Program-made: the position numbers and the translations under genes
Origin: Rhodoligotrophos sp. CJ14
GTDB taxonomy: Bacteria; Pseudomonadota; Alphaproteobacteria; Rhizobiales; Im1
Assembly (NCBI RefSeq): GCF_038811545.1
Contig: NZ_CP133319.1
Coordinates: 2,385,516 to 2,449,515, forward strand
Reading direction: 5' to 3'
Length of the DNA: 64,000 nucleotides
Shown here: positions 35,092 to 54,954 of the stretch, one piece after another
Numbering within the stretch: position 1 is the stretch's first letter
Layout: every line of letters begins with the position of its first letter
Notes under the pieces: generated by a model
What the model was told of the DNA's origin: nothing
The model's database searches: none
The model's input: only the letters and a program-made list of their open reading frames with translations

Positions 35092-36333
35092 TTAGGCTGC
35101 ATCGCTCGGCAGCAAGTCGCTCGCCGCCGCTCCGCTGTCGAGCAATCGGGCAATCTCATCATCCCCATAGCCATATTCACGCAGCACCTCCCGCGTATGC
35201 TCGCCTAGGCATGGGGCTGCCCGCGCTACGGTGACGGGCGTATCGGAGAACTTCACGGGAAAGCCGATCGTCCGCACGGCACCGCGCCTGGAATGCTGAA
35301 CTATCGGGACCATGTCCCGCGCGATCACTTGCGGATCGCGATGCATTTCCGGCACGCGGAGAATCGGGCCTGCGGGCACCCCAGCCGCTTCGAAAGCCGC
35401 CAACCACTCTGCCGCCGTCTTCTGCTGGAACAACGGCTCGAGACACGCATCGAGCGCGTCCTTATTGGCCATGCGATCGGTGTTGGTGCGAAAGCGGGGA
35501 TCTTCAGCCAGTTCGGGAGCACCAAGAATGGCCACCATCCGCCGCCAGTTTGGCTCGCTCGCCGCCCCGATATTGATCCATTCGTCCGCGGTCCGATAGG
35601 CTTGGTAGGGCGCGCTCAAGGGGTGCGCCGAACCAAGCGCGCCAGGGCAGTCGCCCGTCGCGAAGGTGATGGCCGAATGCCAATAGGTGAAGGTCACCCC
35701 CGCCTCGAGGAGAGAGGCATCGACCAGCTGGCCCCTGCCGGTATTCTGCCGCGCATAAAGGGCTGCGACCACGCCCATCGTCGCCAGAATGCCTGCGCTG
35801 ATATCGGTGATCGGCGGCCCGACCTTCACCGGCGGCCGTCCTGGTCCTTCGCCGGTTATGCTCATGAGCCCGCTCATGCCCTGAGCGATCAGATCAAACC
35901 CGCCACGTTCGGCATAAGGACCGGTCCGGCCGAAACCGGAAATCGAGCAATAGATGAGCCGTGGAAACTCGCGGCTCAAATCGTCCCAGCCCAGGCCGAG
36001 CTTCGCCATCGTATCATGGCGGTAATTCTCGATCAGCACATCGGCTGTCGCGAGCAGACGGCGAAGCACCGCGCGGCCCTCTTCCGTCTTGAGGTTCAGC
36101 GCAATGCCTCGCTTGTTGCGATTCATCATCATGAAGGCGTGACTATCCGGATCGCCCGCCTCGTTGGGCATGGTGTCGCGACGGGTGTCGTCGCCGCCTT
36201 GCACCCGCTCGACCTTGATGACGTCAGCCCCCATATCCGCGAGCATGCGCCCGCAGGTTGGGCCGGCCATCACATGGGCGAGTTCGATCACCGTCACCCC
36301 ACGAAGGGGTCCACTCGCAGCGTCCTTGGTCAC
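35092..36333 (-). CDS. CaiB/BaiF CoA-transferase (family III)
   Basis: A 413-residue CoA-transferase that moves CoA between carboxylic acids. Visible motifs are GVTVIELAHVMAGPTCGRML at the N-terminus, ADVIKVE, NRNKRGIALNLK and VGPPITDISAG, in which the Asp is the catalytic residue that forms the acyl anhydride. The start is GTG at 36333 with GGAAGGTGA just upstream. It follows the crotonase gene by 36 bp on the same strand and precedes the FbpA-like importer operon. It probably activates the imported acid for the crotonase step. Confidence 0.93.
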   Translation of the reverse strand: MTKDAASGPLRGVTVIELAHVMAGPTCGRMLADMGADVIKVERVQGGDDTRRDTMPNEAGDPDSHAFMMMNRNKRGIALNLKTEEGRAVLRRLLATADVLIENYRHDTMAKLGLGWDDLSREFPRLIYCSISGFGRTGPYAERGGFDLIAQGMSGLMSITGEGPGRPPVKVGPPITDISAGILATMGVVAALYARQNTGRGQLVDASLLEAGVTFTYWHSAITFATGDCPGALGSAHPLSAPYQAYRTADEWINIGAASEPNWRRMVAILGAPELAEDPRFRTNTDRMANKDALDACLEPLFQQKTAAEWLAAFEAAGVPAGPILRVPEMHRDPQVIARDMVPIVQHSRRGAVRTIGFPVKFSDTPVTVARAAPCLGEHTREVLREYGYGDDEIARLLDSGAAASDLLPSDAA

Positions 36334-36369
36334 GTCTCACCTTCCGAATTCTGCCAGCGATGGGCTCGC

Positions 36370-37149
36370 TCACCGCCCCACGAACCGGGGCTTGCGCTTT
36401 TCGTTGAACGCCGTTGTGCCTTCGCGATAATCCTCGGTATCGAAGCAGCGATAGGGCTCGTCGCGCTCGGCTTGCGATAGAGGTCGCGGATCAGCCAGAC
36501 GCTTGATGAAGGCTTTATGCCAGCGGTTTGACAGCGGGGCTGCCTCGGTGATGCGCCGGACTGTCGTTTCGATCTCCTCATCGAGGGCCTCTGGCGCCAC
36601 GACCCGCGTGACGAGACCGAGATGGTAAGCCTCCTCAGCCCCGAATATCCTGCCCTCGAGCAGCATCTCGAGTGCGCGACGGCGGCCGATGAGATCGCAC
36701 AGCACGTTCAGCTCGTCATAATCGAGCGCGAGCCCAAGCCGGTTGGGCGGAATGCCGAAGCGGCTATCGGACGAGCAGATCCGGATATCGCACGAAGCTG
36801 CGAGCTCCAGCCCGCCGCCCACGCACACGCCGCGGATTTTGGCCACCGTGGGATGCCGGCAGTCTTTCAGGTTGACCAGCGCGCCGACCGTATCCTCGGC
36901 ATATTCTTTTCCCTGAACGGAGCCTTGGCGATCCGAGTCGAATTCACCGATATCGCTGCCGGCGCAGAAGGCCCGATCGCCTCCCCCCTGAACCACGATG
37001 CAGCGAATGCCGCCATCCGCTGAGAGATCTTCGAGCACCGCAGCGAAACGCTGATACATCGGCACCGTGAAGGCGTTCATCTTCTCAGGGCGGTTGATCG
37101 TCACGATCGCCCTGTTCTCGGATCGCTCCACGATGATGTGGTCTTCCAT
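36370..37149 (-). CDS. Enoyl-CoA hydratase/isomerase (crotonase family)
   Basis: A 259-residue crotonase. Oxyanion-hole elements are seen in RAFCAGSDIGEF and GVCVGGGLELAASCDIRI. The second catalytic glutamate of true hydratases (usually in FGxPE) is replaced: here FGIPPNRLGL. It may therefore be an isomerase, decarboxylase or dehydratase of a non-standard type. A strong AGGAGG precedes ATG 37149. It is the first gene of a minus-strand unit with the CaiB/BaiF transferase and is divergent from a GntR regulator. Confidence 0.88.
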   Translation of the reverse strand: MEDHIIVERSENRAIVTINRPEKMNAFTVPMYQRFAAVLEDLSADGGIRCIVVQGGGDRAFCAGSDIGEFDSDRQGSVQGKEYAEDTVGALVNLKDCRHPTVAKIRGVCVGGGLELAASCDIRICSSDSRFGIPPNRLGLALDYDELNVLCDLIGRRRALEMLLEGRIFGAEEAYHLGLVTRVVAPEALDEEIETTVRRITEAAPLSNRWHKAFIKRLADPRPLSQAERDEPYRCFDTEDYREGTTAFNEKRKPRFVGR

Positions 37150-37194
37150 TCCCCGCCTCCTGCTGGGCGCCCCTGCCGCTGCTCGCCTTTTGTA

Positions 37195-37208
37195 ATTCTG
37201 TAATTATA
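37195..37208. promoter_or_regulatory. Shared 14-bp motif ATTCTGTAATTATA, site 2
   Basis: Identical to 35037-35050. On the minus strand it reads as a tandem AATTACAG/AATTACAA direct repeat. It lies 45 bp upstream of the crotonase start and about 240 bp upstream of the GntR gene. Another A/T-rich inverted sequence, ATAATTATGCATTAT, follows near 37243. Confidence 0.5.
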
Positions 37209-37302
37209 TAACTTTGAGACCTGGCGGTGAGCAAGCGAAATATAATTATGCATTATGGGCGGACTTTTCGCCGGGATTGCGCTATCTACAGCCGATCGCC
37301 TG

Positions 37303-37406
37303 GGGCATTTTCGAGCGAAGTGAATAGCGGTTCGCGCGAAGAAGTTGCGGGCGATGCAAGGCGTTAGAGCGGCTTCGCATTCAAAGAAATCCGAAAACGC
37401 TCTAGA
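37303..37406. repeat. Dispersed intergenic palindromic element (copy A), RIME-like
   Basis: A roughly 100-bp element beginning GCATTTTCGAGCGAAGTGAA and ending AAAACGCTCTAGA. The left half contains GGTTCGCGCGAAGAA, and the right half pairs TTAGAGCGG with a terminal CGCTCTA. Copies recur at 56885-56964 and 59168-59265, with degraded copies at 49544-49637 and 13040-13075. It resembles intergenic mosaic elements of rhizobia. The 300-bp region 37150-37449 holds only this and the A/T-rich motifs. Confidence 0.8.
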
Positions 37407-37449
37407 CAGGATCGCTTCGAGACCAAACCTAGCCGGGCAACCAGCGTTA

Positions 37450-38208
37450 ATGCACGACCATTCGCCAGCCGAGCGCAAACCACGTCGCCGCAAACATCTC
37501 GCATCCGCTTCGGGAAGCAAGCCGGTCATTCAGCTGTCGCGCCGCTCGCTGCATGACGAGATCGCCGAGCTGCTCCGCGATAATATCGTCGAGGGCAAAA
37601 TGCTACCCGGCTCGTTCATTGACGAGGCCGAGCTGGTCCATACCCTCGGCGTCTCCCGCACGCCCATTCGTGAAGCCTTGAAGGTGCTCGCCTTCGAAGG
37701 CCTGGTGACCATTATTCCCAATCGAGGGAGCTATGTCGCCCAGCTCGAGCCGGAAGACGCGCGTGATCTGATCGAAGTGCTGGCGGAGCTCGAGGGTTTC
37801 GCTGCCTTTCTCGCCTGTGAACGAGCCGATGAAGAAGATCTACGTGTGCTGCACCGCCTGCACGAAGACATGGCCGCTGCCTACGAGAAGAAGAACAAGC
37901 TCAAATATTTCAAGCTGAACCAGAATATTCATTCCAAGATTGTTGAGGCCGCGAAGAACCCGCATCTGGCGGAAACGCATCGCGCCTATACCAGCCGCTT
38001 GCGCCGGGTGCGCTATCTGGCAACGCCCAACCCTGTGGAATGGCGCTCGTCGATGCAGGACCACGAGAAGATACTCGCAGCCCTGAGCAAGCGGGATGGC
38101 AATGCAGCACGAGCCTTGGTGACCGCCCATGTGGCCGACATCTGGCCGATGGTCGAAGCCGTGCTGCTCGCGGAAAGCCGGGGAGAACCGCAGGCAGTTC
38201 AGAGATGA
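37450..38208 (+). CDS. GntR-family regulator, FCD subfamily
   Basis: About 252 residues. A basic N-terminus (RKPRRRKH) precedes the winged helix FIDEAELVHTLGVSRTPIRE and a helical FCD effector domain with histidines in KLNQNIHSKIVE and VTAHVADIW. The frame is open to 37345, but that part lies inside the dispersed repeat; ATG 37450 gives a normal length. It is divergent from the crotonase/CoA-transferase genes and is their probable regulator through the ATTCTGTAATTATA motif. Confidence 0.87.
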   Translation: MHDHSPAERKPRRRKHLASASGSKPVIQLSRRSLHDEIAELLRDNIVEGKMLPGSFIDEAELVHTLGVSRTPIREALKVLAFEGLVTIIPNRGSYVAQLEPEDARDLIEVLAELEGFAAFLACERADEEDLRVLHRLHEDMAAAYEKKNKLKYFKLNQNIHSKIVEAAKNPHLAETHRAYTSRLRRVRYLATPNPVEWRSSMQDHEKILAALSKRDGNAARALVTAHVADIWPMVEAVLLAESRGEPQAVQR

Positions 38209-38209
38209 G

Positions 38210-38231
38210 CGCGCGGCGCCCTCACCGCGCG
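38210..38231. terminator. Bidirectional terminator-like hairpin
   Basis: CGCGCGG-CGCCCTCA-CCGCGCG, a perfect 7-bp GC stem, lies between the convergent GntR and NIPSNAP genes and overlaps the NIPSNAP stop codon. Confidence 0.5.
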
Positions 38232-38539
38232 AAGAACTCGGCCGGCTTGAGCGGAATGGAGGTGATCGCGGCCGTCAATGCTCCGTCCACTTCGGTCCTG
38301 GTCTTGAGAGCCTGCCAGTCCGGATCCTTCCGAAACGCCTCCCATCCCGCCTTCATGGCCGCCTGATCCGGCCATTCGACCAGATACCAAAGCTCGCCCG
38401 GCATGTCTGCATGCTCCCAGAAATCAATCACTTTGATGTCGAGCTTCTCGAACAGCTGCAAGGTGCCATTGGCAAAGCGGTGCCGAAGGGCCTCTTCTTT
38501 TCCAGCGACCGGCACGTAATGTCTCAGCTCGTAGATCAT
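38222..38539 (-). CDS. NIPSNAP-family protein
   Basis: A 105-residue single dimeric alpha/beta-barrel domain protein. MIYELRHYVPVAGKEEAL at the start and FWEHADMPGELWYLVEW in the middle are characteristic of NIPSNAP. The biochemical role of the family in bacteria is unclear, although members often sit with catabolic monooxygenase genes. ATG 38539 has GGAGAGGG upstream; the long open frame to 39139 is a shadow of the MocR gene. It follows the MocR-like gene by 23 bp on the same strand and may be co-transcribed with it. Confidence 0.85.
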   Translation of the reverse strand: MIYELRHYVPVAGKEEALRHRFANGTLQLFEKLDIKVIDFWEHADMPGELWYLVEWPDQAAMKAGWEAFRKDPDWQALKTRTEVDGALTAAITSIPLKPAEFFAR

Positions 38540-38562
38540 CGATCCCTCTCCTCTTATTGATC

Positions 38563-39954
38563 TCAAAGAACCAGGTAAGAGGCCGCCGGGCGCTTGCTGC
38601 GCAGCAGCTCGGCAACCACCTCCAGCCCCTGCTGGAGTTCGGCGCGCGAGGCTGTGGCCCCGCCAAGACTGAGGCGCACCGCTTGCGGCGCCGTGCCATG
38701 CCCCACCATGAAGGCTTCCGCCGGCGTCACTGCCACGCCGCGAGCATTTGCAGCAGCAACGAAGCCTTCTGCACGCCAGCTCTCGGGCAGAGCCACCCAC
38801 ATATGCAGCGCCGTGGGCAACGCCCGGACCAGCTGGCCACTGAGCAGATCGGCCGCCATCGCCTGGCGCTTGCGCAGCTCTTCGCGCTGCTCTTCCGCTA
38901 AACGCTGGGCGGTGCCATCCTCGATCAGCCGGCTCGCTATCTCGATCGAGAACAGTGAAGCCATCCATGTCGTCGAGGCAAGCCCCGGAATGAGATCCTT
39001 CGCCCGGCCTCTCGGTGCGGCGATGAAGCCGGTGCGCAGCCCCGCCGAGATGATCTTGGAAAGACTGGTGATATAGAAGCCCTGCTCGGGCGCGAAGGTG
39101 GCGATGGGGGGCAGCGGCTTGTCCATCAGCGCGCCGCAAACGTCATTCTCGATAATCGCCACCCCATAGTGCTCTGCAATGTCGGCCAGGGCTTTACGGC
39201 GATCCACCGGCATCACGGCCAGGGTAGGACTGTGATGCGTGGGGATGCAGAACAGCGCGCGCACCCCGCCGGCCTTGCAGGCCGCCTCGAATGAGTCCGG
39301 CATCACGCCGTCTTTGTCGATCTGCACCGGCTTGGGCGTCAGGTGACGGTTGGCGATGAGGAAGCGGATGCCCGGATCGGCGAGCTCTTCCAGCAGAATG
39401 GTATCACCAGGCTCGGTAATGGCATTGAGCACCGCTGCCGCCGCCTGCTGCGCGCCGTTCACGATGACGATGTCATCTGCATGGGCGGCCAGGCCGAGCG
39501 TGGAGAGCCACTTCACTGCCGCCATGCGATGTTCCGGCATGCCGAGCCACGGGCGGTGATACGGAACCAGGCTCTCGATCCGTCCGCTTCCGATCATGTC
39601 GCGCATGGCCCCTGTGATCGCCGCCTCCTGCGACGGCAGCACCACGAGACAATTGAAGCTGAGATCGATCCGGTCAGATTGTGCGCGATTTGGCTCGAGC
39701 CGGGGGAGATCCGACGGCCTGGAGCTGACGAAGGTGCCCCGGCCCACCGATCCCTCAATGAGATGGCGACGCTCCGCCAGAGCATAGGCTTTGCTGATGG
39801 TGCTGACCGAGAGTTTCAGCTGCCAGGCAAGCTCTCTATGGGTTGGCAGCCGCGCTCCGGGCGCAAGTCGCCCCTGGGCAATATCTTCCGCGAGGGCGTC
39901 GGCAATGGCGACATAGAGCTTGCCCTTGCGGTTCTTGTAGTTCGGGATCCACAT
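38563..39954 (-). CDS. MocR-like regulator (GntR domain fused to a PLP aminotransferase-fold domain)
   Basis: About 463 residues. The N-terminal winged helix contains RLPTHRELAWQLKLSVSTIS, and the fold-type I aminotransferase domain contains IVNGAQQAAAAVLNAI, ENDVCGAL and the PLP lysine in SLSKIISAGLRTGFI. MocR proteins sense PLP or amino compounds with this domain and usually regulate divergent genes. ATG 39954 opens MWIPNYKNRKGKLYVAIADAL, the standard start of the family, although no clear ribosome site is visible. It is divergent from the monooxygenase/dipeptidase operon. Confidence 0.93.
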   Translation of the reverse strand: MWIPNYKNRKGKLYVAIADALAEDIAQGRLAPGARLPTHRELAWQLKLSVSTISKAYALAERRHLIEGSVGRGTFVSSRPSDLPRLEPNRAQSDRIDLSFNCLVVLPSQEAAITGAMRDMIGSGRIESLVPYHRPWLGMPEHRMAAVKWLSTLGLAAHADDIVIVNGAQQAAAAVLNAITEPGDTILLEELADPGIRFLIANRHLTPKPVQIDKDGVMPDSFEAACKAGGVRALFCIPTHHSPTLAVMPVDRRKALADIAEHYGVAIIENDVCGALMDKPLPPIATFAPEQGFYITSLSKIISAGLRTGFIAAPRGRAKDLIPGLASTTWMASLFSIEIASRLIEDGTAQRLAEEQREELRKRQAMAADLLSGQLVRALPTALHMWVALPESWRAEGFVAAANARGVAVTPAEAFMVGHGTAPQAVRLSLGGATASRAELQQGLEVVAELLRSKRPAASYLVL

Positions 39955-39968
39955 TGAGCAGGAGATTT

Positions 39969-39981
39969 GTTGTATGACAAT
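39969..39981. promoter_or_regulatory. Putative MocR operator, site 1 (TTGT-ATG-ACAA)
   Basis: The inverted repeat TTGT-N3-ACAA lies 15 bp upstream of the MocR ATG, in the divergent promoter with the monooxygenase gene. The same architecture occurs at 42145-42157 in front of the importer operon. Confidence 0.55.
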
Positions 39982-40040
39982 GTTCAAATTGACACGCAAC
40001 TCTCCCTCAACATAATCCAAAACGCAATACAAATTCCTCG

Positions 40041-40055
40041 CGGAACGCGGTTCCG
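40041..40055 (+). promoter_or_regulatory. Palindrome CGGAAC-GCG-GTTCCG in the monooxygenase leader
   Basis: A perfect 6-bp inverted repeat 27 bp upstream of the monooxygenase ATG. It could be an operator or an mRNA hairpin near the ribosome site. Confidence 0.35.
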
Positions 40056-40082
40056 TGACGGCTGCCCGGCAAAGGAGCGGTC

Positions 40083-41120
40083 ATGCAGTTCGGCTTCTAT
40101 CTCCCCTGCTATTATCCAGATATGTCCTATCCGGCGGCGCAACTCTATCGGGACACCATAGAGGAAGCCAAGCTGGCGGAGGAACTGGGCTTCATCTCGC
40201 TCACAATTCCCGAGCACCACTTCATCAACTATCTCACCCATCCGAGCCCTTTGCTGACTGCAGTGCGCGTGGCCGCCGAGACCAAGTCGATCCCCCTGAT
40301 CAGCGCCGTGCTCGTGCTGCCGTTCTACGACATCCGCAGGCTTGCCGGCGAAATCGCCCAGGCCGATTGCCTGACCGAAGGGCGCATTCAGATCGGCGTG
40401 GGCCGCGGCGCCTTCCGCTACGAATTCGATCGTTTCAACGTGCCGGTCGAGGAAAGCCGCGACAGGTTCGACGATAGCCTTAACCTGCTGATGAAGCTGC
40501 TCTCCGAGGAAGAGGTCAGCTGGGACAGCAAGTATTACAAATTCGACGCGCTCACCATCACACCGCGACCATTCCAGAAGCCCTATCCCAAGATCTGGGT
40601 TGCGGCTCTCTCGGAAGGGGCAATCGCGGGCACTGTGCGCCGAGGCTTCAACGTGATGACGACGCCCCTGCGCGACCCGTTCGAGGCGGCGAGCAAGCAG
40701 GCCAAGGCCTTTCTTGACGCCTTGCCTCCAGGAAACCCGCTGAACCAGAAGCACTCGATGCTGCGCATGGGCTTCGTTGCCAAGAACGAGGCGGACGCCA
40801 CCGAGAAGCTGCATCTCGCTCTCGACAACCACCGGCGCTTCGTCAACGTGTTCGAAACAGCCGGCACTGTGAAGGGTGGTGCGATTGTCCCGCTGGACGT
40901 GCCGGAGACCCTCGAGGATATCCGGCGTAGCCTCATCATCGGCTCACCCCAGGAATGCGTGGATAAGATCGGCCACTATGCCGAGCTTGGGATCGACGAC
41001 ATTCAGGTCAACATGAATTTCGGCGCATCCCATAAGGATGTCATGGAGGCGCTCGAGCGCTTTGCCGTGCACATCATGCCCCACTTCAAGAATGATGCAC
41101 GCGCGGAGGTGGCCGTATGA
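40083..41120 (+). CDS. LLM-class flavin-dependent oxidoreductase (luciferase-like monooxygenase)
   Basis: A 345-residue bacterial luciferase-like TIM barrel that uses reduced FMN and O2. The family signatures MQFGFYLPCY, IPEHHFINYL and LTEGRIQIGVGRGAFRYEF are present. It is probably one half of a two-component monooxygenase; the only flavin reductase gene in the window lies 5 kb downstream at 46184. It overlaps the M19 dipeptidase gene by 4 bp. It is divergent from a MocR regulator and preceded by a TTGT-N3-ACAA palindrome. The substrate is unknown, possibly an amine, heterocycle or sulfonate. Confidence 0.9.
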   Translation: MQFGFYLPCYYPDMSYPAAQLYRDTIEEAKLAEELGFISLTIPEHHFINYLTHPSPLLTAVRVAAETKSIPLISAVLVLPFYDIRRLAGEIAQADCLTEGRIQIGVGRGAFRYEFDRFNVPVEESRDRFDDSLNLLMKLLSEEEVSWDSKYYKFDALTITPRPFQKPYPKIWVAALSEGAIAGTVRRGFNVMTTPLRDPFEAASKQAKAFLDALPPGNPLNQKHSMLRMGFVAKNEADATEKLHLALDNHRRFVNVFETAGTVKGGAIVPLDVPETLEDIRRSLIIGSPQECVDKIGHYAELGIDDIQVNMNFGASHKDVMEALERFAVHIMPHFKNDARAEVAV

Positions 41121-42142
41121 CGTCCGATAGCACCCGTGCCGCCGAGCTCCACCGGCGCGCCCTGATCATCGACGGTCTCGTCTTCCGCTGTGACACCGAT
41201 GCGGTGCTGCGGCAGGGCAATGTCGCCGCGGTCAATATCACGGTCGCCGATTTCAACGCGGATTTCGAAGTCGTCTGCGACGACATCGCGGCATGGCTCG
41301 CGCGCGCGACAGATCCCGCAGGCCCATGGCACATCGTTGAGACGGTTGCCGATATCCATGCGGCCCGCAAAGCCGATAAGATCGGCCTCATCATGGGCTG
41401 GCAGAACATGCGCGGCATTGGCGATCGGCTCGATCGCCTCCGCTTTTTCCACCGCCTGGGCATTCGCGTGATGCAGCTCACCTATAATGAGCGCAACTTC
41501 ATCGGCGATGGTTGCCTGGAACCGGCGGATGCGGGCTTGAGCCTCTTCGGTCGCCGGGTCGTCGCGGAGATGAACCGGTGCGGCATCGCCATTGACCTGA
41601 GCCATGTCGGCCATCGCTCGGCCATGGACGCCGCCACGCTCAGTGAACGGCCGGTCCTGCTGACCCATGCCAATGCCAAGGCAATCTCGGATGTGCCGCG
41701 CAACAAGCACGATGAGCTGATCAAGGCCGTGGCGGAAACCGGCGGGCTCGTCGGGGCGAGTGTCTATGGTCCGATGTGCTGGGATGGCAATCCGGAGCGC
41801 CGGCCGAACCTGGAGGATTTCTATCGCCATCTGGACCATATCGTGAGCCTCGTCGGCATCGAACATGTTGCCTTCGGCACCGACTTCCCGGCGGTTGCCG
41901 ATCTCGACTCGGTCGGATCGATCATCCAGATGACACTTGATCGCTATCCCACGGCCATCACCAAATATGCGGCCGCTTTCGGCAACGACGCGCGCACCCG
42001 CTATCCCGTGGATTGCGGCTCACCAGCGGAACTTGGCAAACTCACCGAACTCCTGGTGGCCAAGGGTTGGACCGATGCCGACATCCTGGCCTTCCTCGGC
42101 GGCAATTATTTGCGGGTATTGGATGCCATCTGGACGGTCTAG
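41117..42142 (+). CDS. M19 (renal dipeptidase-like) amidohydrolase with altered metal motifs
   Basis: A 341-residue protein of the membrane dipeptidase family, but cytoplasmic (no signal peptide). The two later metal histidines are present (DLSHVGHRS and LTHANAKA). The early HxD motif is absent (LIIDGLVFRCDTD), and the segment that normally carries the bridging Glu reads IMGWQNMRGIGD. This pattern fits a proteobacterial subgroup I associate with betaine/dimethylglycine gene clusters rather than true dipeptidases. It is translationally coupled to the monooxygenase and ends just before the palindrome at 42145. It may hydrolyse the product of the monooxygenase. Confidence 0.85.
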   Translation: MTSDSTRAAELHRRALIIDGLVFRCDTDAVLRQGNVAAVNITVADFNADFEVVCDDIAAWLARATDPAGPWHIVETVADIHAARKADKIGLIMGWQNMRGIGDRLDRLRFFHRLGIRVMQLTYNERNFIGDGCLEPADAGLSLFGRRVVAEMNRCGIAIDLSHVGHRSAMDAATLSERPVLLTHANAKAISDVPRNKHDELIKAVAETGGLVGASVYGPMCWDGNPERRPNLEDFYRHLDHIVSLVGIEHVAFGTDFPAVADLDSVGSIIQMTLDRYPTAITKYAAAFGNDARTRYPVDCGSPAELGKLTELLVAKGWTDADILAFLGGNYLRVLDAIWTV

Positions 42143-42144
42143 AT

Positions 42145-42157
42145 GTTGTCGCACAAC
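42145..42157. promoter_or_regulatory. Putative MocR operator, site 2 (GTTGT-CGC-ACAAC)
   Basis: A perfect 13-bp palindrome with the same TTGT-N3-ACAA core as at 39970-39980. It lies 114 bp upstream of the importer binding-protein gene, immediately after the dipeptidase stop. Confidence 0.55.
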
Positions 42158-42271
42158 AATATCCCTGTTGACCTGCTTATTTGACCGGCTAACGTGAATT
42201 GTAATGCGATCCGAGATGCCCCTGGGTGAGGCTGAAGAGGGTTCCGGATCCTGTATGGGGAGAACTTTGCT

Positions 42272-43321
42272 ATGCGTCGTCACGGACCTCTTTCTCGGAT
42301 GACCTGCCGGGCCGCCTTGCTCGTTGCGGGTTTTGCCATGTTCGCCAACACCGCTTTGGCGCAAGACACGATCACCATTGCGGGCTGGGGCGGCAACTAC
42401 CAGGAGGCCCTGTCCAAGGCCGTTTGGCAGCCCACTGCGGAAAAACTCGGCATCACCATTCTGGAGGACACGACCAACGGCCTTGCGGATGTCCGCGCGC
42501 AAGTGTCCGCCAACAGCGTGCTCTGGGATATCACCGAGCTGACGATCGACGGCTGCGCCCAGGGTGAGACGGAAGGCCTGTTCGAAGACCTGGACTATGG
42601 CATCATCGACAAATCAGGCTTCGATCCCGCGGTGGTGCAGCGCACCTATATCGGGCTCAACTATTATTCCAACGTCATCGGTTGGAATAAGGAGAAGTTC
42701 AAGGAAGGCCCGCAATCCTGGGCCGACTTCTGGAATGTCGAGAAATTCCCCGGCCGCCGCTCCCTGCGCAATGACCCCGCCGAGGTTCTGGAAGCAGCGC
42801 TGCTCGCCGATGGCGTTGAGCCCAGCAAGCTCTATCCGCTGGATCTCGACCGGGCCTTCAAGAGCCTTGAGAAGATCAAGCCGCATATCTCTGTCTGGTG
42901 GTCCTCCGGTGCGCAATCCGCCCAGCTTGTGGCCGATGGCGAGGTTGATCTGATCGGTGCCTGGAACGGCCGCATCAGCGCCGCGGTCCAATCCGGTGCG
43001 CCCTTCGAGTTCACCTTCAACCAGGGCCTGCTCATCGCCGATTGCCTCGTGATCCCGAAGGGGGCGAAGAACAAGGATCTCGCCATGAAGGCGCTGGCGA
43101 CGGCGGTCTCGGCGGAGATGCTCGCCAACTTGCCTCAGTATATCGACTACGGCCCGGCCAATCTGAAGGCGTATGACACCGGCAAGATCTCTCCCGAAAT
43201 GGCCAAGACCCTCAACACTTCGCCCGAGAATGCGCCCAAGCAGGCCGTTGTACGCGGCGACTGGTGGGGCAAGCACGGCGCTGAGGCACGTGAGCGCTGG
43301 GCCCAGTTCATCAATCAATAA
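42272..43321 (+). CDS. PotD-like ABC substrate-binding protein
   Basis: A 349-residue periplasmic binding protein with a Sec-type signal ending ANTALA-QDT. It shares SWADFWNVEKFPGRRSLR, LADGVEPSKLYPLDLDRAF and LEKIKPHISVWW with the proteins at 15721 and 25284, so the three form one paralogous set. The DTITIAGWGGNYQ opening is typical of PotD-like proteins. It is the first gene of an operon with ATPase, two permeases and a flavin reductase. The linked monooxygenase suggests a nitrogenous organic ligand. Confidence 0.92.
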   Translation: MRRHGPLSRMTCRAALLVAGFAMFANTALAQDTITIAGWGGNYQEALSKAVWQPTAEKLGITILEDTTNGLADVRAQVSANSVLWDITELTIDGCAQGETEGLFEDLDYGIIDKSGFDPAVVQRTYIGLNYYSNVIGWNKEKFKEGPQSWADFWNVEKFPGRRSLRNDPAEVLEAALLADGVEPSKLYPLDLDRAFKSLEKIKPHISVWWSSGAQSAQLVADGEVDLIGAWNGRISAAVQSGAPFEFTFNQGLLIADCLVIPKGAKNKDLAMKALATAVSAEMLANLPQYIDYGPANLKAYDTGKISPEMAKTLNTSPENAPKQAVVRGDWWGKHGAEARERWAQFINQ

Positions 43322-43330
43322 GTCTGCTGC

Positions 43331-43357
43331 GGGAGCCGGCACTGCGTGTCGTCTCCC
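43331..43357 (+). terminator. Imperfect hairpin after the binding-protein gene
   Basis: GGGAGCCGGCAC-TGC-GTGTCGTCTCCC pairs at 10 of 12 positions. It lies between the binding-protein stop and the ATPase start, in the same relative place as the hairpins at 15664 and 26387. Confidence 0.5.
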
Positions 43358-43392
43358 AAGCAACCAGTGTGGTTGAGCGCGACAGGGGTGAC

Positions 43393-44496
43393 ATGACAGT
43401 TCGTGACGGCTCGGCTTCGCGCATGGGGCTGGACATCAGCATCAGGTCCCTGGTCAAGCACTATGGTGATTACACGGCCCTCGACGGCGTAAGTCTCGAC
43501 ATCCGCGCGGGCGAGTTCCTGACCCTGCTTGGACCATCCGGCTCGGGCAAATCGACCCTGCTGATGGTGATCGCCGGCTTTATCCGGCCCACCTCGGGGC
43601 TTCTGCGCTTCGGCAGCCGCGACGTGACCAAGCTCGAACCCCACAAGCGGAACATCGGCGTCGTGTTCCAGAACTATGCGCTGTTCCCGCACATGACGGT
43701 GGGCGCCAATGTGGCTTATCCCCTGAAGCTGCGCGGCCTGCCCAAGAACCGGATCGCCGAGCGCGTGAGCTGGGCTCTGTCACTGGTGAAGCTTGACGGT
43801 TATGGCGACCGCAGCATCGACCAGCTCTCGGGCGGCCAGCGCCAGCGGGTTGCCCTGGCGCGTGCTGTGGTCTTCGAGCCCGACGTGCTGCTCATGGATG
43901 AGCCTCTGTCGGCGCTCGATAAGAAGCTGCGCGAGCACATGCAGATCGAGATCCGGCGCCTGCATGACAAATTGGGCGTGACCACGATCTATGTCACCCA
44001 TGACCAGCGCGAGGCGCTGACCATGTCTGACCGCATTGCGGTGATCAACCACGGGCGCTTCGAACAGATCGCCGACCCGCGCACCCTGTACGAGAACCCT
44101 GCCAGCAGCTTTGTTGCCGATTTCATCGGCGATGCCACGGTTCTCGCGCTGGATGGGAACGGCGCCGGCCACACCCTGAGTGGCCGCTCCGTGCGCAGCA
44201 ACGGCCATGCCTGCACGAACCAGCCGGGTTTCCTGGTCCTGCGCCCTGAGAAGCTTCGCATTCTCAATGGCATCGACGACGAGCAGTGGAACCGCTTCGC
44301 CGGCGTCGTGAACGAGATCGTCTATCAAGGTGACAGCGTCCTGCTCTCGATCGAGCTGGCCAATGGCGAAACGATTTTCCTGCGCCAACCGACGGATCAA
44401 ACGACCCTCGAAACGCTTCCGCGCAAGGGCCAGCCGATTGATATCGGCTTGCACGTCAATGACACTTTGATCGTGCCCGGGATGGCGGCGCCATGA
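43393..44496 (+). CDS. ABC transporter ATP-binding protein, PotA type
   Basis: About 367 residues. Walker A is LLGPSGSGKSTLL, the Q-loop is VVFQNYALFPHM, the signature is LSGGQRQRVALARAV, Walker B is VLLMDEPLSALD, and the switch is VTHDQREAL, with a C-terminal TOBE domain. ATG 43393 follows AGGGGTGAC and is preferred over GTG 43369. It overlaps the first permease by 4 bp (ATGA). Confidence 0.94.
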   Translation: MTVRDGSASRMGLDISIRSLVKHYGDYTALDGVSLDIRAGEFLTLLGPSGSGKSTLLMVIAGFIRPTSGLLRFGSRDVTKLEPHKRNIGVVFQNYALFPHMTVGANVAYPLKLRGLPKNRIAERVSWALSLVKLDGYGDRSIDQLSGGQRQRVALARAVVFEPDVLLMDEPLSALDKKLREHMQIEIRRLHDKLGVTTIYVTHDQREALTMSDRIAVINHGRFEQIADPRTLYENPASSFVADFIGDATVLALDGNGAGHTLSGRSVRSNGHACTNQPGFLVLRPEKLRILNGIDDEQWNRFAGVVNEIVYQGDSVLLSIELANGETIFLRQPTDQTTLETLPRKGQPIDIGLHVNDTLIVPGMAAP

Positions 44497-45365
44497 TGGT
44501 GCATTCGGCCGAGGAAATGGAGGCCAAGGATAGGGGCGAGAGGCTGCGGCTGCTCGGCTTGTCCACCCCATCGGTGCTGCTGGTCACCGTCATTCTGCTT
44601 ATCCCCGTCGGCTGGCTCTTCTGGTTGTCCTTCTCAGGCCCCAACGGCCTCTCGCTCGTCAATTATGTCAGGCTCTACGAGAACAGCGCCTATCTCACGA
44701 TCTTTCAGACGACCTTCGTTCTCAGCCTGATCGTGACCGTGGTCACTGCCGTCCTCGGCTATCCCTTCGCCTATCTCTTGTCGCAGCTCCCGCGCACCCT
44801 TGCCATTCTCGGCCTCTTCGTCGTCTTGCTGCCATTCTGGACCTCAACCCTCGTCCGCACGTATTCCTGGCTGGTGCTGCTGCAGCGGCGCGGAATGATC
44901 AACACGCTGCTCATGAAGCTCGGCATCATCCAGGAGCCGCTGGGACTGGTCTATAACAGCACCGGCGTGGTGATCGGCATGGTCCACATCATGCTGCCCT
45001 TCATGGTGCTGCCGCTCTATGCCGCCATGAAATCGGTAGATCCGACACTGGTGCGGGCGGCGGTCAGCCTCGGCGCGACCCGGCGTCATGCCTTCTTCAC
45101 CATTTTTGCGCCCCTTACCCTGCCCGGCCTCATCGCCGGCTCGCTTCTTGTCTTCATCTATTGCCTCGGCTTCTACATCACGCCACAGATCCTCGGCGGC
45201 GGGCGTGTCAATCTCGTCTCGATGAAGATCCTTGAGAATGCCACCGTCTATTCCGATTGGGGCGCGGCCTCGGCTTTGGGCGTGGTGCTGCTGGTTGCGA
45301 CCCTCCTCATTTTCAAACTGATTCAGAAGATCGTGCCCGTCGAGCGACTGCTGAGGAGTCCGTGA
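44493..45365 (+). CDS. ABC transporter permease, PotB type
   Basis: A 290-residue permease with about six predicted helices, the EAA loop VRAAVSLGATRRHAFFTIFA and FYITPQILGGGRVNLVS, matching PotB-type subunits. It is coupled to the ATPase by a 4-bp overlap and followed by the partner permease after 3 bp. Confidence 0.92.
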   Translation: MMVHSAEEMEAKDRGERLRLLGLSTPSVLLVTVILLIPVGWLFWLSFSGPNGLSLVNYVRLYENSAYLTIFQTTFVLSLIVTVVTAVLGYPFAYLLSQLPRTLAILGLFVVLLPFWTSTLVRTYSWLVLLQRRGMINTLLMKLGIIQEPLGLVYNSTGVVIGMVHIMLPFMVLPLYAAMKSVDPTLVRAAVSLGATRRHAFFTIFAPLTLPGLIAGSLLVFIYCLGFYITPQILGGGRVNLVSMKILENATVYSDWGAASALGVVLLVATLLIFKLIQKIVPVERLLRSP

Positions 45366-45368
45366 GCC

Positions 45369-46187
45369 ATGGACGATCAGACTGTCTCGCACCGCCAGCG
45401 CCTATGGCTCTATGCCTTTGGCATCGCCATCAGCATTTTCCTGTTGGCGCCGATTGCGATCGTGATCCCCATCTCATTCTCGCCGGGCGAGTTTCTGGAG
45501 TTTCCGCCCCCAGAGCTTTCCCTGCGCTGGTACCGCTCGTTCTTCTCCAGCGCCGAATGGATGAGCGCCACCTGGGTTTCGATCAAGGCGGCCGTGCTTA
45601 CGGTCCTGGTGGCAACCCCGCTCGGCGTGGCCGCCGCCTATGGTCTGCATGTCTCCCAGTCCCGGCTCGCGACGACCATCCGGCCGCTGCTGCTGGTGCC
45701 CCTGATCGTCCCGGTGATCATCGTCGCGATCGGCGTATTCTATCTCTATGCGCGGCTGTCGCTCATCAACACGCTCACCGGCCTTGTGCTGGCCCACAGC
45801 GTGCTCGCCCTGCCCTTCGTCTTCGTGGTGGTGAGCGCCGGACTGCAGCGCTACGACATGGCCCAGGAACTTGTGGCACGCTCGCTCGGTGCCTCCCGTC
45901 TGAAGGCCTTTCTTACGGTCACCCTGCCACAAATCCGGCAATCGGTGATTTCTGGTGCCCTGTTCGCCTTCGTCACATCCTTCGATGAAGTCGTGATCGC
46001 GCTGTTCGTCTCGCGCGGACCCTCATCGACTCTCACGCGCAAGATGTTCACCTCCTTGCGCGACCAGGTCAGCCCCACCATCGCCGCCATCTCGACCCTC
46101 CTCATCTTGGTGACCCTCCTTGTGGCCGGGCTGATCCTCATCGCCCAGTTCCGTCAGGGGTCCAAGCGCTTGGCGAGGGTAGAATGA
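45369..46187 (+). CDS. ABC transporter permease, PotC type
   Basis: A 272-residue permease with about six predicted helices and the EAA loop ELVARSLGASRLKAFLTVTL. It pairs with the preceding permease. Its stop overlaps the flavin reductase start (ATGA), an unusual coupling of a transporter to a redox enzyme. Confidence 0.92.
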   Translation: MDDQTVSHRQRLWLYAFGIAISIFLLAPIAIVIPISFSPGEFLEFPPPELSLRWYRSFFSSAEWMSATWVSIKAAVLTVLVATPLGVAAAYGLHVSQSRLATTIRPLLLVPLIVPVIIVAIGVFYLYARLSLINTLTGLVLAHSVLALPFVFVVVSAGLQRYDMAQELVARSLGASRLKAFLTVTLPQIRQSVISGALFAFVTSFDEVVIALFVSRGPSSTLTRKMFTSLRDQVSPTIAAISTLLILVTLLVAGLILIAQFRQGSKRLARVE

Positions 46188-46699
46188 GCAGCGCGGACCA
46201 GGGCTACCACTGCGACCCCGAACACTTTCGCTCGGCGATGCGCTATTTCCCTGCGAGCGTCTGTGTGATTACGACAGGCACCGCGCCCAACCGCAGCGGC
46301 CTCACCGCAACCGCGGTCTGCTCCCTGTCGATGGCACCGCCACGGATTCTCGTCTGCCTCAATGCCGAAACCACGACCTGCAAGGCCATTCAGGCCAATA
46401 CGCGTTTCGCCGTGAATGTCTTGAGCCAGAACCACATAGAACTCGCCCGCTGCTTTGGCGGTATCGGTCAGGCGCCCGCCGGCGAGCAAAGGTTCAGTCA
46501 AGGATGCTGGCGCGATGGCGCATTCGGCGTCCCGGTGCTAGACGACGCGCTTCACGTGCTGGAATGTGGGCTTATTCGCTGTCATGAAGCAGGCACCCAC
46601 AACATTCTCGTCGGCCAGGTGCTGCACGTCCCCAAGCAAGGACAGCACGAGGCCCTGCTTTACCGGAATGGCACGTTCGGTTCCTGGGCGCCCCTTTAG
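46184..46699 (+). CDS. Flavin reductase family protein (FMN-binding split barrel)
   Basis: A 171-residue NAD(P)H:flavin oxidoreductase of the HpaC/DszD-like split-barrel family. HFRSAMRYFPASVCVITTG at the start and RSGLTATAVCSLSMAPPRIL with FAVNVLSQNHIELARCFGG are diagnostic. Such proteins supply reduced FMN to a separate monooxygenase. It is translationally coupled to the permease gene; its most plausible partner is the luciferase-like enzyme at 40083, which may share the same regulator. The other two luciferase-like enzymes in the window have no nearer reductase. Confidence 0.92.
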   Translation: MSSADQGYHCDPEHFRSAMRYFPASVCVITTGTAPNRSGLTATAVCSLSMAPPRILVCLNAETTTCKAIQANTRFAVNVLSQNHIELARCFGGIGQAPAGEQRFSQGCWRDGAFGVPVLDDALHVLECGLIRCHEAGTHNILVGQVLHVPKQGQHEALLYRNGTFGSWAPL

Positions 46700-46755
46700 A
46701 AGTGGACACTGGTACACGCCAAGAAGACGCGCCAGGCAAAAGAGGTGAGAGCCGG

Positions 46756-48558
46756 TTACGACCCGCCCGCCATGCCATCCAGGCGCATGGCCAATCCCAG
46801 GGCGAACCGGGTTTCCGCACATCTGAGGTCGATACCGAACACCGATTGCACCCGCGCGATCCGATAGCGAAGCGTCGAGACGTGAATGCCGAGCGCTTCG
46901 GCGGCCTTCTGATGACGACAATTCAGTTCAATGAAGATGTTGGACGTCCTCAAGAGCTCGGTGCCATGTTTCAGGTCATAAGCCTTGATGGCGCCGACGG
47001 TCTGCGCCACGAAGCCTGGCACCGCATGATCATCCAGGGCCGAAATCAACAGGGCGTATGGGCCGAAATCCGCCTCCTGAATGAGCCCCGTTCGTTTGAA
47101 CATGCGGGCCAGCGCCAGGGTCCGCAGGCACGAGCTGAAGCCTTTGGACAGCTCCTCGATCCCTGAAATCTTCGGCCCCTCGATGATGATGGCGGGATGA
47201 CCCGTCTGCCACCGCACGATCTTTTCAACGGCCGAGGCGAGAACCTGCTTCAGTCGCGGCGTATATTTCTGGCTCGCAATGCTGACGATGATCTGCTGCC
47301 TGATGGGCCCGATCATGAAGTCGGGATGAATGCGTTTCAGATCTCGCTCGAGACTTCGGATTGCGCCGATCTCCAACCCGACCTTTTCATCCTGAGCAGA
47401 GACGAGCAACAGCTGCGATTCCTGTGTGAGGCCCCAGCCGAGGCGGCCCGCCCGCGCCTGGAAGGCCGGCTCACGGGTTCCTCTGCCATCCACGGCCCGC
47501 TCCAGGAGATCCCCCACCTCCGCAAACAGCTGCCGTGAGGCGACATAACTCCTGATGAGCACCGTGCTTAAGGCGAACTTGGCGTTCTGCGCGATGAGAA
47601 TGTCGAAATCGCTGACCCCCCGCCCCACTGGAAAGATGACCAAGCCACCGACCGTCTCGCCATCGATCCGGATCGCCTCCATGCGAGCAGTCACACACTC
47701 GGCGCCCAGCTGCAGTGGGAACGGCGTATTGAACCCGGAAGGACCGGCAGAGAGCACCTGATGGCGCAAGGTCGCGTAGGCTTCCGCTTGCAGAAGCTCT
47801 GCCCATTGCTTGTCTGTGACTTTGAGGCTGTCGGGAGCTCGACCCGCGTAAACCCGATCGGTCGTGAAATCGAGCACGGCGATCGGGTGTAGCAAGGCCG
47901 CCTCGATCAGTGGAGCGATCGCATCCATGCGGCCATCTTCAAGCACACGCTGGAACAGCCCCGCGCTGAGATCGAGCACGCCTCTGAGGCGCGCGCTATA
48001 GGCACGCTCCACATTGACCAGCTTGGCCTTGTTGACTGCGATCGCCGCCAAATGAGAGATGGTCGAGAGGAAATCGAGCTCCTCTTTGGTGACCTCGATC
48101 TTCTTCTTGGAATGAACCGCAAGGACGAGATCGCGTCCTTCCGCATCCGACACGTTCAAAGACAGAACCACGACCGTGTGATAGTCGCGTGCAATTGCAT
48201 CCCGACGATAGCTCAGATAGTCCGTCGTTTCCTGAGCATCATGGATGATGATCGGCTGCCTTCGCTCGACCGCAAGCCTCGATGGGCTCGTATCCAGCGA
48301 CCACCGCTTTGGAAGCGTCTCATAGACCGCACTGGGCGGCGCATAGCGCGTGACCAGTTCGGAATAACCGGTGGATCTGTTCAGCGCCATGATGCCACTT
48401 GTCCACCAGATCGAGTGATGACAGGTGGCGAAGACAATCTGGTCCAATATGGCGGGCAGATCGCTCGTCGCGTTGACCGCGCCGGCGATCTCCCGAATTT
48501 GCTCCAGACGACCGGCGACCGGCATGGAAACCTGCCGGTCAGCCGCGATAGGGGTCAT
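46756..48558 (-). CDS. PucR/CdaR-type transcriptional regulator with GAF domain
   Basis: A 600-residue regulator. The N-terminal half resembles a GAF sensory domain (ILDQIVFATCHHSIWW to EELDFLSTISHLAAIAVNKA). The middle fits a GGDEF-like CdaR domain, and the C-terminal helix-turn-helix of the PucR family is seen in AEALGIHVSTLRYRIARVQ. ATG 48558 has AGAGG upstream. It converges with the flavin reductase gene and lies 15 bp after the esterase gene on the same strand. Targets are not evident; PucR-type proteins often control amine, purine or sugar-acid catabolism. Confidence 0.88.
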   Translation of the reverse strand: MTPIAADRQVSMPVAGRLEQIREIAGAVNATSDLPAILDQIVFATCHHSIWWTSGIMALNRSTGYSELVTRYAPPSAVYETLPKRWSLDTSPSRLAVERRQPIIIHDAQETTDYLSYRRDAIARDYHTVVVLSLNVSDAEGRDLVLAVHSKKKIEVTKEELDFLSTISHLAAIAVNKAKLVNVERAYSARLRGVLDLSAGLFQRVLEDGRMDAIAPLIEAALLHPIAVLDFTTDRVYAGRAPDSLKVTDKQWAELLQAEAYATLRHQVLSAGPSGFNTPFPLQLGAECVTARMEAIRIDGETVGGLVIFPVGRGVSDFDILIAQNAKFALSTVLIRSYVASRQLFAEVGDLLERAVDGRGTREPAFQARAGRLGWGLTQESQLLLVSAQDEKVGLEIGAIRSLERDLKRIHPDFMIGPIRQQIIVSIASQKYTPRLKQVLASAVEKIVRWQTGHPAIIIEGPKISGIEELSKGFSSCLRTLALARMFKRTGLIQEADFGPYALLISALDDHAVPGFVAQTVGAIKAYDLKHGTELLRTSNIFIELNCRHQKAAEALGIHVSTLRYRIARVQSVFGIDLRCAETRFALGLAMRLDGMAGGS

Positions 48559-48573
48559 TATGTCCTCTGAGTT

Positions 48574-49524
48574 CTACACTCCAGCAAATATTTCTCGCAG
48601 AAATTTGCAGGGCGCGTCAAATTCCGCCTCGGCGGTTGGCCCGCTGAACCGGGCGCGCACGAAGCCATGGATCATGTCCTTCGCCCGCCGAAGCACCACG
48701 CGGTTGCCGGCGGCCTTCAGGCGCTCGGCATATTGCACGCTGTCATCTGCGAGGCAGTCGATCTGCGCCTCATGCACATGGGCAGGCGGCAGGTTCGACA
48801 GATCCGTGGCCTTGAGCGGCGCGGCGTAAGGATTGTTGGTCGGGCGCCGGTCGCCGAGATAAAGGCTCCACGCACGATCGATAGACGCTGTCGTCACGGG
48901 CGCCTCCGCGTAGGTGCGGTAGGACTCCGAGGTCAGTTCGTCGGTCAAGCATGGATAGACAAGGACCTGTGCGGCGATGGCGGGGCCGCCGCGGTCGCGC
49001 GCCATGAGGCAGCAGGCCGCCGCCATATTACCCCCGGCGCTGTCTCCCCAGACCGCCAGCTTGGCGGGATCGATGCCGAACTCGGCAGCATGGGCGGAGA
49101 TATAGGAGACCACCGCATAGCAATCCTCAACGCCCGCCGGGAAAGGGTGCTCCGGCGCGAGGCGATATTCCACACCGAACGAAACACAGCCGACATAATC
49201 GGCGATACCCCACGCGATCGGATCGCCACTGTCGAGATTGCCTTTGATGAATGCGCCTCCATGCAGATAGACGACGCAAGGTGCCGCATCCGATGCCGCC
49301 GCCGACCGGTAGAGCCGCACCCTTATTTTGCGCGGTCCATCGGCCACATCGCAATCGAGCTCCAGATCGCGCACCTCCATCCCGGGCGGATAGCTGCGCT
49401 GAAGCGCATTGGCATAGGACGTCCAGCCCGCCCGAAGGGTCTGCGGATCGGCCTCTTTGGGCACTGCCGCCTTCGCGGCAAGCAATTCGCGCATGTCGGG
49501 GTGCACAGGCCATGGCAAATTCAA
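48574..49524 (-). CDS. Alpha/beta hydrolase, HSL/GDXG-type esterase
   Basis: About 316 residues. The oxyanion motif HGGAFIKGN, the nucleophile elbow GDSAGGNMAAA, an acid in EAQIDCLADDS and the final His in DMIHGFVRARF define a hormone-sensitive-lipase-like carboxylesterase. The frame is open to 49572, but TTG 49524 has AGGAG seven bases upstream and avoids starting inside the degraded repeat at 49544-49637. It lies between ProX and PucR genes on the same strand. The substrate is a short-chain ester of unknown nature. Confidence 0.88.
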   Translation of the reverse strand: MNLPWPVHPDMRELLAAKAAVPKEADPQTLRAGWTSYANALQRSYPPGMEVRDLELDCDVADGPRKIRVRLYRSAAASDAAPCVVYLHGGAFIKGNLDSGDPIAWGIADYVGCVSFGVEYRLAPEHPFPAGVEDCYAVVSYISAHAAEFGIDPAKLAVWGDSAGGNMAAACCLMARDRGGPAIAAQVLVYPCLTDELTSESYRTYAEAPVTTASIDRAWSLYLGDRRPTNNPYAAPLKATDLSNLPPAHVHEAQIDCLADDSVQYAERLKAAGNRVVLRRAKDMIHGFVRARFSGPTAEAEFDAPCKFLREIFAGV

Positions 49525-49543
49525 ATCGGGTCTCCTGGAGCTT

Positions 49544-49637
49544 GAGCATGTCTGAGTAAAGTGGCCCGGCATTCGCGGAAAGACTGCGGACCTCCAACAA
49601 CTTAGAACGGTTTCGCGTCTCCGGGAACTGCGAAAGC
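49544..49637. repeat. Degraded copy E of the dispersed intergenic element
   Basis: Begins GAGCATGTCTGAGTAAAGTG and continues through CAACTTAGAACGGTTTCGCG to GCGAAAGC, with the same order of blocks as copies A-C but many substitutions. It lies between the ProX and esterase genes and overlaps the upstream part of the esterase reading frame. Confidence 0.6.
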
Positions 49638-49701
49638 CTTCGAGCTGTCGGGCAGTTCAAGCGCCTCCGGCCACGCGGCTGGAAGCGCTCGAGCCTATAC
49701 A

Positions 49702-51965: not shown

Positions 51966-52245
51966 TCCCGCTCTCTTCCTGCATGATTGGGTGTTAGGCG
52001 GAACATCCACATTCTGCGAACCGACTGCGCGCCAACCGCCCGGATACTGCGCATTGACTGCCAAACTCTGGCGATCGTATACGCGTCCTGTCCCCTCGCC
52101 ATTCAACTCAATACACAAAGGCGGGAGCCCCTATTCCTACAAATCCTATGAGATCCGCCGCCTTCAAGCGCGCTTGCTCGCGCTGCGCCTTACCAGCCTT
52201 GGTGCAGCACTGGTCCATCGCGGGGAATTGAGCGACACTGGCGCG

Positions 52246-54639: not shown

Positions 54640-54954
54640 CTTGTGCTTGGCGGTCTCTCAACACGAAATGACGTCGGCTGAATTGCCGAACTCCGCTCAG
54701 TCGACCTGACTTTGCTCGAGCCATATTCTTCCCCGACGTTACGTATCAGCGGGGTCCTGCGGCCTATACATCGGCAACTCTAACCGCGAAACCATAGGTT
54801 CCACGGCTTCGATGGAAGCCCCTTGATGCCGTATACGGACCGCGTTATGGTTCCATATAGAACTATTAAGCAGACCAGCTGGCCTCGCCATCGACCCAGC
54901 AACAAGGCCCGTGCCGTCGCGCAGACCCGTTCGAGGGTGCAGTCGGGAGGAATC
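54640..54954. other. 315-bp non-coding region between MarR gene and monooxygenase operon
   Basis: No gene is supported here. It holds the MarR-like palindrome at 54849-54864 and a related split pair of half-sites, GGTTCCA at 54797-54803 and TGGAAGCC at 54813-54820. A reading frame into the monooxygenase is open from 54823, but the real start is at 54955. Confidence 0.6.
54849..54864. promoter_or_regulatory. Putative MarR operator, site 2
   Basis: GGTTCCATATAGAACT matches the site at 54089-54104 at most symmetric positions; the shared consensus is close to AGTTCCATATGGAACT. It lies 90 bp upstream of the monooxygenase start. Confidence 0.55.

Follow-up and report, generated by a model that had tools for sequence, protein, structure and literature searches.

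What does a cell do with an importer, a luciferase-like flavin monooxygenase (LLM), and a dipeptidase-like protein that lacks two of its family's metal-binding motifs, all encoded beside a MocR-type regulator? The question is raised by positions 38222 to 46699 of a 64,000-nucleotide stretch of Rhodoligotrophos sp. CJ14 (contig NZ_CP133319.1), hereafter the window. The module is real, and its parts recur together. Uptake and oxidative breakdown of a compound is its likely function, and we propose with moderate confidence, by analogy, a MocR-controlled pathway in which an importer and a two-component flavin mononucleotide (FMN) monooxygenase would handle a small, carboxylate-bearing, N-substituted compound. 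Such a pathway would resemble the ethylenediaminetetraacetic acid (EDTA) operon, with proteins drawn from other subfamilies.

The module, its conservation, and its operators

The gene calls agree with those of an earlier sequence-only reading of this DNA, which had listed an LLM gene overlapping an M19 gene, an importer, a permease–reductase overlap, and MocR and NIPSNAP genes upstream. The features are as follows, with ABC standing for ATP-binding cassette, SBP for solute-binding protein, and GABA for γ-aminobutyric acid.

38222–38545, minus strand: NIPSNAP-family small protein (PF07978, 5.6e-9), 17 bases downstream of the MocR gene on the same strand
38563–39954, minus strand: MocR-type regulator of the EhuR/EnuR family (NF052286, 486.8 bits; cut-off 480)
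39967–39980, no strand: operator 1, TTGT-N6-ACAA; a TTGACA hexamer begins 8 bases on
40083–41120, plus strand: LLM flavin monooxygenase (PF00296, 1.7e-48)
41117–42142, plus strand: M19 dipeptidase-like protein, Gln96 (QN) subfamily (PF01244, 1.2e-74, 251.8 bits)
42146–42159, no strand: operator 2, TTGT-N6-ACAA; a TTGACC hexamer begins 8 bases on
42272–43321, plus strand: SBP with GABA- and opine-binding relatives (PDB 4i1d, MotA 5l9g, 4eq7)
43369–44496, plus strand: PotA-like ABC ATPase (TIGR01187, 386.8 bits; cut-off 355.6)
44493–45365, plus strand: ABC permease 1 (best NCBIfam match PotB, below cut-off)
45369–46187, plus strand: ABC permease 2 (best NCBIfam match PotC, below cut-off)
46184–46699, plus strand: flavin reductase (PF01613, 1e-37; best NCBIfam match RutF, below cut-off)

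The NIPSNAP and MocR genes diverge from the LLM–M19 pair and from the SBP–ATPase–permease–permease–reductase unit, with 129 bases between M19 and SBP. Four-base overlaps join the LLM to M19, the ATPase to permease 1, and permease 2 to the reductase. The MocR open reading frame (ORF) extends to 40032; its likely ATG lies at 39954, and homology begins at residue 28. A NIPSNAP gene is also found near MocR in loci L011, L012, and L055, and an agmatinase-like gene lies just past it in one congener (L012, 4048–4998, minus strand; 168.1 bits, cut-off 174.3).

At E ≤ 1e-60, a relative of the M19 protein is present in 4 of 297 genomes of the order, three of them in the same genus, and in 13 of 385 genomes of the class. 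A scan of named genomes returned 58 loci, 19 of which carry an LLM of this type; the other 39 showed none, most of them holding an M19 of 44–53% identity and some lying on cut contigs. When the window, L011, L012, L216, and 22 of the 58 were compared gene by gene, LLM and M19 genes were both present in 23 of these 26 loci: the window, 20 with the two genes adjacent, and L055 and L216, which have them at separate places (L059, L062, and L095 lack the LLM). The pair recurs in other, mostly alphaproteobacterial metagenome-assembled genomes (MAGs). On a 64-row M19 tree (FastTree, with long-branch warnings), linkage to the LLM needs 3 changes versus 17.1 when shuffled. Searching from the LLM side gave 18 matches, 11 of them (window included) at least 55% identical; the fetched stretch holds an M19 for seven of the 11, and L177 is cut where L105 has its M19. 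None of the seven weaker matches has an M19 in its fetched stretch.

The sequence-only reading had made conservation beyond close relatives decisive, and the gene set is found in L055, L054, and L216. L055 carries all nine genes plus an aldehyde dehydrogenase (ALDH) in 11.7 kb, reshuffled to M19, MocR, reductase, NIPSNAP, ALDH, LLM, SBP, two permeases, and ATPase. L054 keeps the order LLM–M19–SBP–ATPase–permease–permease–reductase without MocR. L216, a second module in the congeneric genome G002, encodes MocR, an LLM of 54% identity, an ALDH resembling succinate-semialdehyde dehydrogenase (SSADH), an SBP (read by eye), an ATPase, and permeases, followed further on by an M19 of 31% identity and a flavin adenine dinucleotide (FAD) amine-oxidase-like protein; it has no reductase. 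The complete set is rare, most LLM–M19 loci having neither MocR nor reductase. A second locus type combines a PotF-like SBP, the LLM, M19, and a glutathione S-transferase (GST), with Pot-like transporter genes running the opposite way and, in several loci, acyl-CoA ligase, PhyH, and class III aminotransferase genes. We recognized no description of the gene set in the full-text literature, where coverage of subscription journals and preprints is thin, making this weak evidence of novelty. The CJ14 genome also holds a second importer–LLM cluster (L195, 3328–11138) with the order SBP–ATPase–permease–permease–LLM (40%)–α/β hydrolase–GST–short-chain dehydrogenase.

Both transcription units had been described as preceded by TTGT-N3-ACAA palindromes. 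This pattern occurs exactly twice in the window, at 39970 and 42146, one ahead of each unit (0.25 expected by chance; two or more in 1 of 100 shuffles). The sites stand, but the conserved spacing, seen by comparing the same intergenic regions in relatives, is N6 and not N3. As an operator the N3 form was rejected: it is missing from L012, L049, and L105 and occurs once in L011, with the N6 form twice in each. Counted in 25 loci, with chance estimated from 20 resamplings per locus, TTGT-N6-ACAA is present exactly twice in each of the window, L011, L012, L049, and L105 (0.00–0.15 expected per locus), and all of these pairs sit in the MocR–LLM or M19–SBP gaps. A single site in L050 lies within the ORF following M19, 1.4 kb from M19, and L216 has a one-mismatch site between MocR and LLM. 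The MocRs of L049 and L105 are 43–44% identical to that of the window, and there, too, an operator separates MocR from the LLM.

At all six operators of the three congeneric genomes (G000, the organism's own, G002, and G003), ACAAT is followed after 7 bases by TTGAC. The composite TTGTN6ACAAN8TTGAC occurs exactly twice per genome in all three, solely at the promoters of this module, and its reversed control gave no match in them; the pattern was defined on these very sites, and its informative part is the lack of other occurrences. The bare TTGTN6ACAATNT counts 23 over six genomes versus 9 for its reversed control. Both window sites read TTGT-N6-ACAAT, the outermost A of the published consensus being missing (TTTGT, GTTGT). 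That EnuR/EutR consensus is given as ATTGTnnnnnnACAAT and attributed to Suvorova and Rodionov 2016 in the available text of PMC8739950; TTGT-N6-ACAA agrees with it, and N6 had been counted before it was looked up. The single regulon first proposed is supported by the twofold operator–promoter unit in each of three genomes, and the sequence pattern suggests that both units are probably co-regulated by MocR. A GntR/FCD regulator (37345–38208) is not favored as owner of the operators, having no match at the congeners' module, where the operators are kept. Because this compact regulon has a predicted regulator and operator, its substrate can be sought through induction. Elsewhere in G002, other LLM and flavin reductase genes at L142 and L143 are surrounded by six TTGT-N6-ACAA sites over 32 kb; the window MocR finds no match there, and another regulator may be at work.

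The proposed pathway and its reductase

In the pathway we propose, MocR would act on the two alike operator–promoter units and, by analogy with EnuR, would sense a primary-amine intermediate through pyridoxal 5'-phosphate. The ABC importer would take up the substrate. The LLM would receive reduced FMN from the reductase encoded in the importer operon or, where that gene is missing, from another flavin reductase, and would cleave a C–N bond, with an aldehyde and an amine as products; EmoA/EmoB act on EDTA in this way. An ALDH and an FAD amine oxidase would continue the breakdown in relatives that encode them, and the QN-type M19 protein, its metal site altered, would hydrolyze an amide-like or formyl-like intermediate.

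Among the traits of a two-component FMN monooxygenase, the LLM fold is present, and a reductase is encoded in the importer unit of the window but not at the module of the congeners. The LLM structure model (predicted local distance difference test score 86.1) lies nearest to RslO1 and bacterial luciferases, with the first named F420 enzyme ranking 27th in the fold search; the cofactor would likely be FMN rather than F420. No RutA, NtaA, or EmoA-type model is among the 25 families that the LLM matches at E ≤ 0.001. A search of 61 loci with a profile of 11 reductase relatives, those of the window and L055 among them, found the gene in three only: the window, L055, and L054. In L054 the reductase start at 14756 (a GTG chosen by hand) and the permease stop at 14759 give the same four-base overlap as in the window. 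The three module reductases are 27–28% identical, and the window gene falls on the opposite side of the tree from those of L054 and L055 (L054 on a long branch); orthology was rejected, and we tentatively read these cases, few as three are, as repeated recruitment of a reductase. The nearest plasmid-borne LLM (40.9% identity) is also directly preceded by a flavin reductase. The claim of a dedicated reductase stands as far as the gene belongs to the importer unit and is present in L055 and L054, but its rarity, the lack of orthology, and its absence from the congeners' module speak against the claim.

Several observations weigh against this pathway. Neither congener has the reductase at the module, their best matches lying elsewhere at 41% and 36% identity, and two further LLMs (50886–52118, minus strand; 54823–56073, plus strand), about 4 and 8 kb past the module, could be the reductase's partners. 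The module LLM reaches no NCBIfam subfamily cut-off, and CofD is encoded in G000, G002, G003, and the L055 genome, so F420 may be available. Exact TTGT-N6-ACAA matches are absent from the other 19 of the 25 loci, L055 and L054 included, and the bare TTGTN6ACAATNT counts 3 in G000 versus 4 for its reversed control. Three of the 11 LLMs of at least 55% identity lack an adjacent M19 (L179, L190, L191), and the L055 ALDH and L012 amine oxidase have no match in positions 36001–50000 of the window.

The alternative that survives best makes the reductase a bystander: the LLM would draw on F420 or on some general-purpose flavin reductase, and the partner of the 46184 gene product would be a different oxygenase, for example the LLM encoded at 50886 or 54823. 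We regard this as a serious possibility, if short of probable. It draws on the gene's absence from the module of both congeners, on CofD, on the two LLMs close by, and on nine matches to the module reductase in the CJ14 genome, itself included; however, the four-base overlap with the last permease is repeated in the distant L054, L055 also holds a reductase, and no CofD was found in the L049 and L054 genomes, MAGs of unstated completeness that both carry the LLM–M19 pair.

Other reductase genes and neighbors were also observed. The L054 reductase (14756–15787) has a long C-terminal extension that looks Nudix-like by eye. A Roseovarius pelagicus plasmid (L215) holds four LLM and three flavin reductase genes and two amidohydrolases within 21 kb. 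Directly beyond the window reductase, on the opposite strand, lies a PucR-type regulator with GAF and HTH_30 domains (46756–48558, minus strand), and a ProX-type betaine binding protein (49702–50742) and a Peripla_BP_6 protein are encoded near the two further LLMs.

Substrate, M19 protein, and regulator

For the SBP, the closest matches are 4i1d, MotA (5l9g; opine-related), and 4eq7, whose sequence equals that of 4euo, the entry of GABA-binding Atu4243. The SBP retains a WNGR stretch, the Arg of which presumably binds the ligand carboxylate. Import of a nitrogenous compound, as first suggested, is supported in kind by these GABA- and opine-binding relatives. The L216 ALDH scores 645.9 against a cut-off of 646.35 for the SSADH subfamily, and the L055 ALDH matches best as a betaine-aldehyde type, under its cut-off. 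From such sequence likenesses we infer an N-substituted amino acid, perhaps a γ-amino acid, and our guess is a GABA-like N-substituted acid.

RutA and trigonelline LLMs open N-heterocycles, and a comparable ring opening here, with M19 hydrolyzing the resulting amide, would suit both the hydrolase-family gene directly after the LLM and a reductase that scores best to the RutF model (130.4 bits, under the cut-off of 254.75). We consider it unlikely: the SBP relatives bind GABA and opines, the ALDHs and amine oxidases that accompany the module in some relatives are in keeping with amine dealkylation, and, as a weak point, we did not recognize this gene set in the trigonelline or pyridine-LLM literature.

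M19 dipeptidases hold a binuclear zinc site through an HxD motif and a bridging Glu. With HxD placed where we take it to lie, the window protein lacks it, and Gln96 aligns with the bridging Glu of Sco3058; H163, H184, and D256 are retained. An alignment of 64 rows (58 of this group and 6 paralogs), gathered by similarity and so leaning to the protein's own subfamily, shows Q96, N124, E135, D160, H163, H184, R195, and D256 to be invariant, and the 61 readable rows have no His at column 21 and no Asp at column 23. The sequence-only reading was correct about both missing motifs, but their loss is common to all aligned relatives and not peculiar to this locus.

The M19 structure model is confident, with 2i5g of P. 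aeruginosa its nearest Foldseek neighbor (29% identity) and Sco3058 and renal dipeptidase also found. The aligned sequence of 2i5g is GFQN, placing Gln at the bridging position, and a Sphaerotilus dgc-like (dimethylglycine) operon encodes a dipeptidase that reads LGFQN, with 34% identity. A dipeptidase gene is mentioned within the dgc operon of Pseudomonas and Vibrio, and in Pseudomonas putida KT2440 the one next to dgcA is PP_0308. We surveyed 16 annotated plasmid relatives, hand-picked among 40 listed of 365 records with incomplete gene tables: Gln occupies the bridging position in all 16 and is followed by Asn in 14, and the Rhizobium locus encodes a further M19, which carries Glu there. 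A flavin-dependent oxidoreductase is annotated within three genes in nine of the 16 loci, a count with no random-gene control (A. tumefaciens, Palleronia, Terrarubrum, Salipiger, Thioclava, A. brasilense, two related Azospirillum sox operons, and the Sphaerotilus dgc-like operon), and importer genes are present in 12. The neighbors of QN-type M19 genes are accordingly varied in kind: the LLM here, sarcosine oxidase in Azospirillum, DgcAB-type proteins in Sphaerotilus, and FAD oxidoreductases in Agrobacterium, Terrarubrum, and rhodobacteria.

It is a doubtful but testable idea that the QN-type proteins are not dipeptidases but widespread, functionally unrecognized hydrolases that complete flavin-dependent C–N oxidations, with a mononuclear site or no metal, acting on a common by-product such as an N-formyl, N-hydroxymethyl, or imino adduct. 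The module suggests a link between an M19 subfamily with an altered metal site, the dgc-type operon dipeptidase included, and flavin-dependent amine oxidation, making the role of that overlooked gene directly testable. That M19 is instead a pseudoenzyme or scaffold without catalysis would suit the absence of HxD from all 61 readable rows and the Gln that takes the place of the bridging Glu in all 64, but it strikes us as improbable, since the seven other residues kept in every row look like active-site selection and the confident model lies near 2i5g and the renal dipeptidases.

The MocR protein only just passes the NCBIfam EhuR cut-off (486.8 and 486.7 bits in two runs versus 480). A separate EhuR (669.5 bits) lies about 6 kb from DoeA (807.9 bits) in the CJ14 genome, in an ORF layout that looks like an ehu–eut cluster; the window module lacks the neighboring ectoine genes expected of EhuR/EnuR regulators, with no DoeA-like match there. 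Among 18 MocRs placed in a tree, the six module regulators make up one set with L152, the MocR of L216, at a support of 97; the three higher-scoring EhuRs join this set less firmly (83). Module MocRs score 487–501 bits, the three other EhuRs 629–670 bits, and L152 442.3, under the EhuR cut-off; a DoeA is encoded about 6 kb away from two of the three. All seven members of the set lie near this type of LLM (2.9 kb apart in L055). A pathway for ectoine or a derivative, suggested by the EhuR-family regulator and operator and by an M24 gene, distantly resembling ectoine hydrolase, that both congeners have close to the module, is very unlikely and was not adopted because the genome's own EhuR–DoeA pair lies elsewhere, and the M24 protein reaches 161 versus 575.

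Comparison with known systems

The module MocR shares with the ectoine regulators EnuR, EhuR, and EutR a score over the EhuR cut-off and the TTGT-N6-ACAA operator; unlike them, the module regulators form their own tree set and neighbor LLM–M19 and importer genes, suggesting an EnuR-type regulator that acts outside ectoine use. The M19 protein has Gln at the bridging position in common with 2i5g, its nearest fold, and with the dgc-type operon dipeptidase, whose partners are DgcAB-type genes and not an LLM; identities are 29% and 34%, respectively. The RutA/RutF system for uracil and NtaA/NtaB likewise pair an LLM with a flavin reductase, and RutF is the best NCBIfam match of the window reductase; in contrast, that match falls below the cut-off, and the LLM matches no RutA or NtaA model. 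We take EmoA and EmoB of the EDTA operon to belong to other subfamilies than the LLM and reductase of the window.

A characterized precedent is that Chelativorans operon (EmoA, EmoB, IdaA, EppABCD), which encodes both an ABC importer and the enzymes for degradation; EmoA is FMNH2-dependent with a flavin reductase partner, and the oxidase IdaA finishes the oxidation (PMC7312458). The available text of that source mentions neither an M19 protein nor a MocR regulator. The mechanism we propose for the Rhodoligotrophos module is modeled on these features by analogy (PMC7312458).

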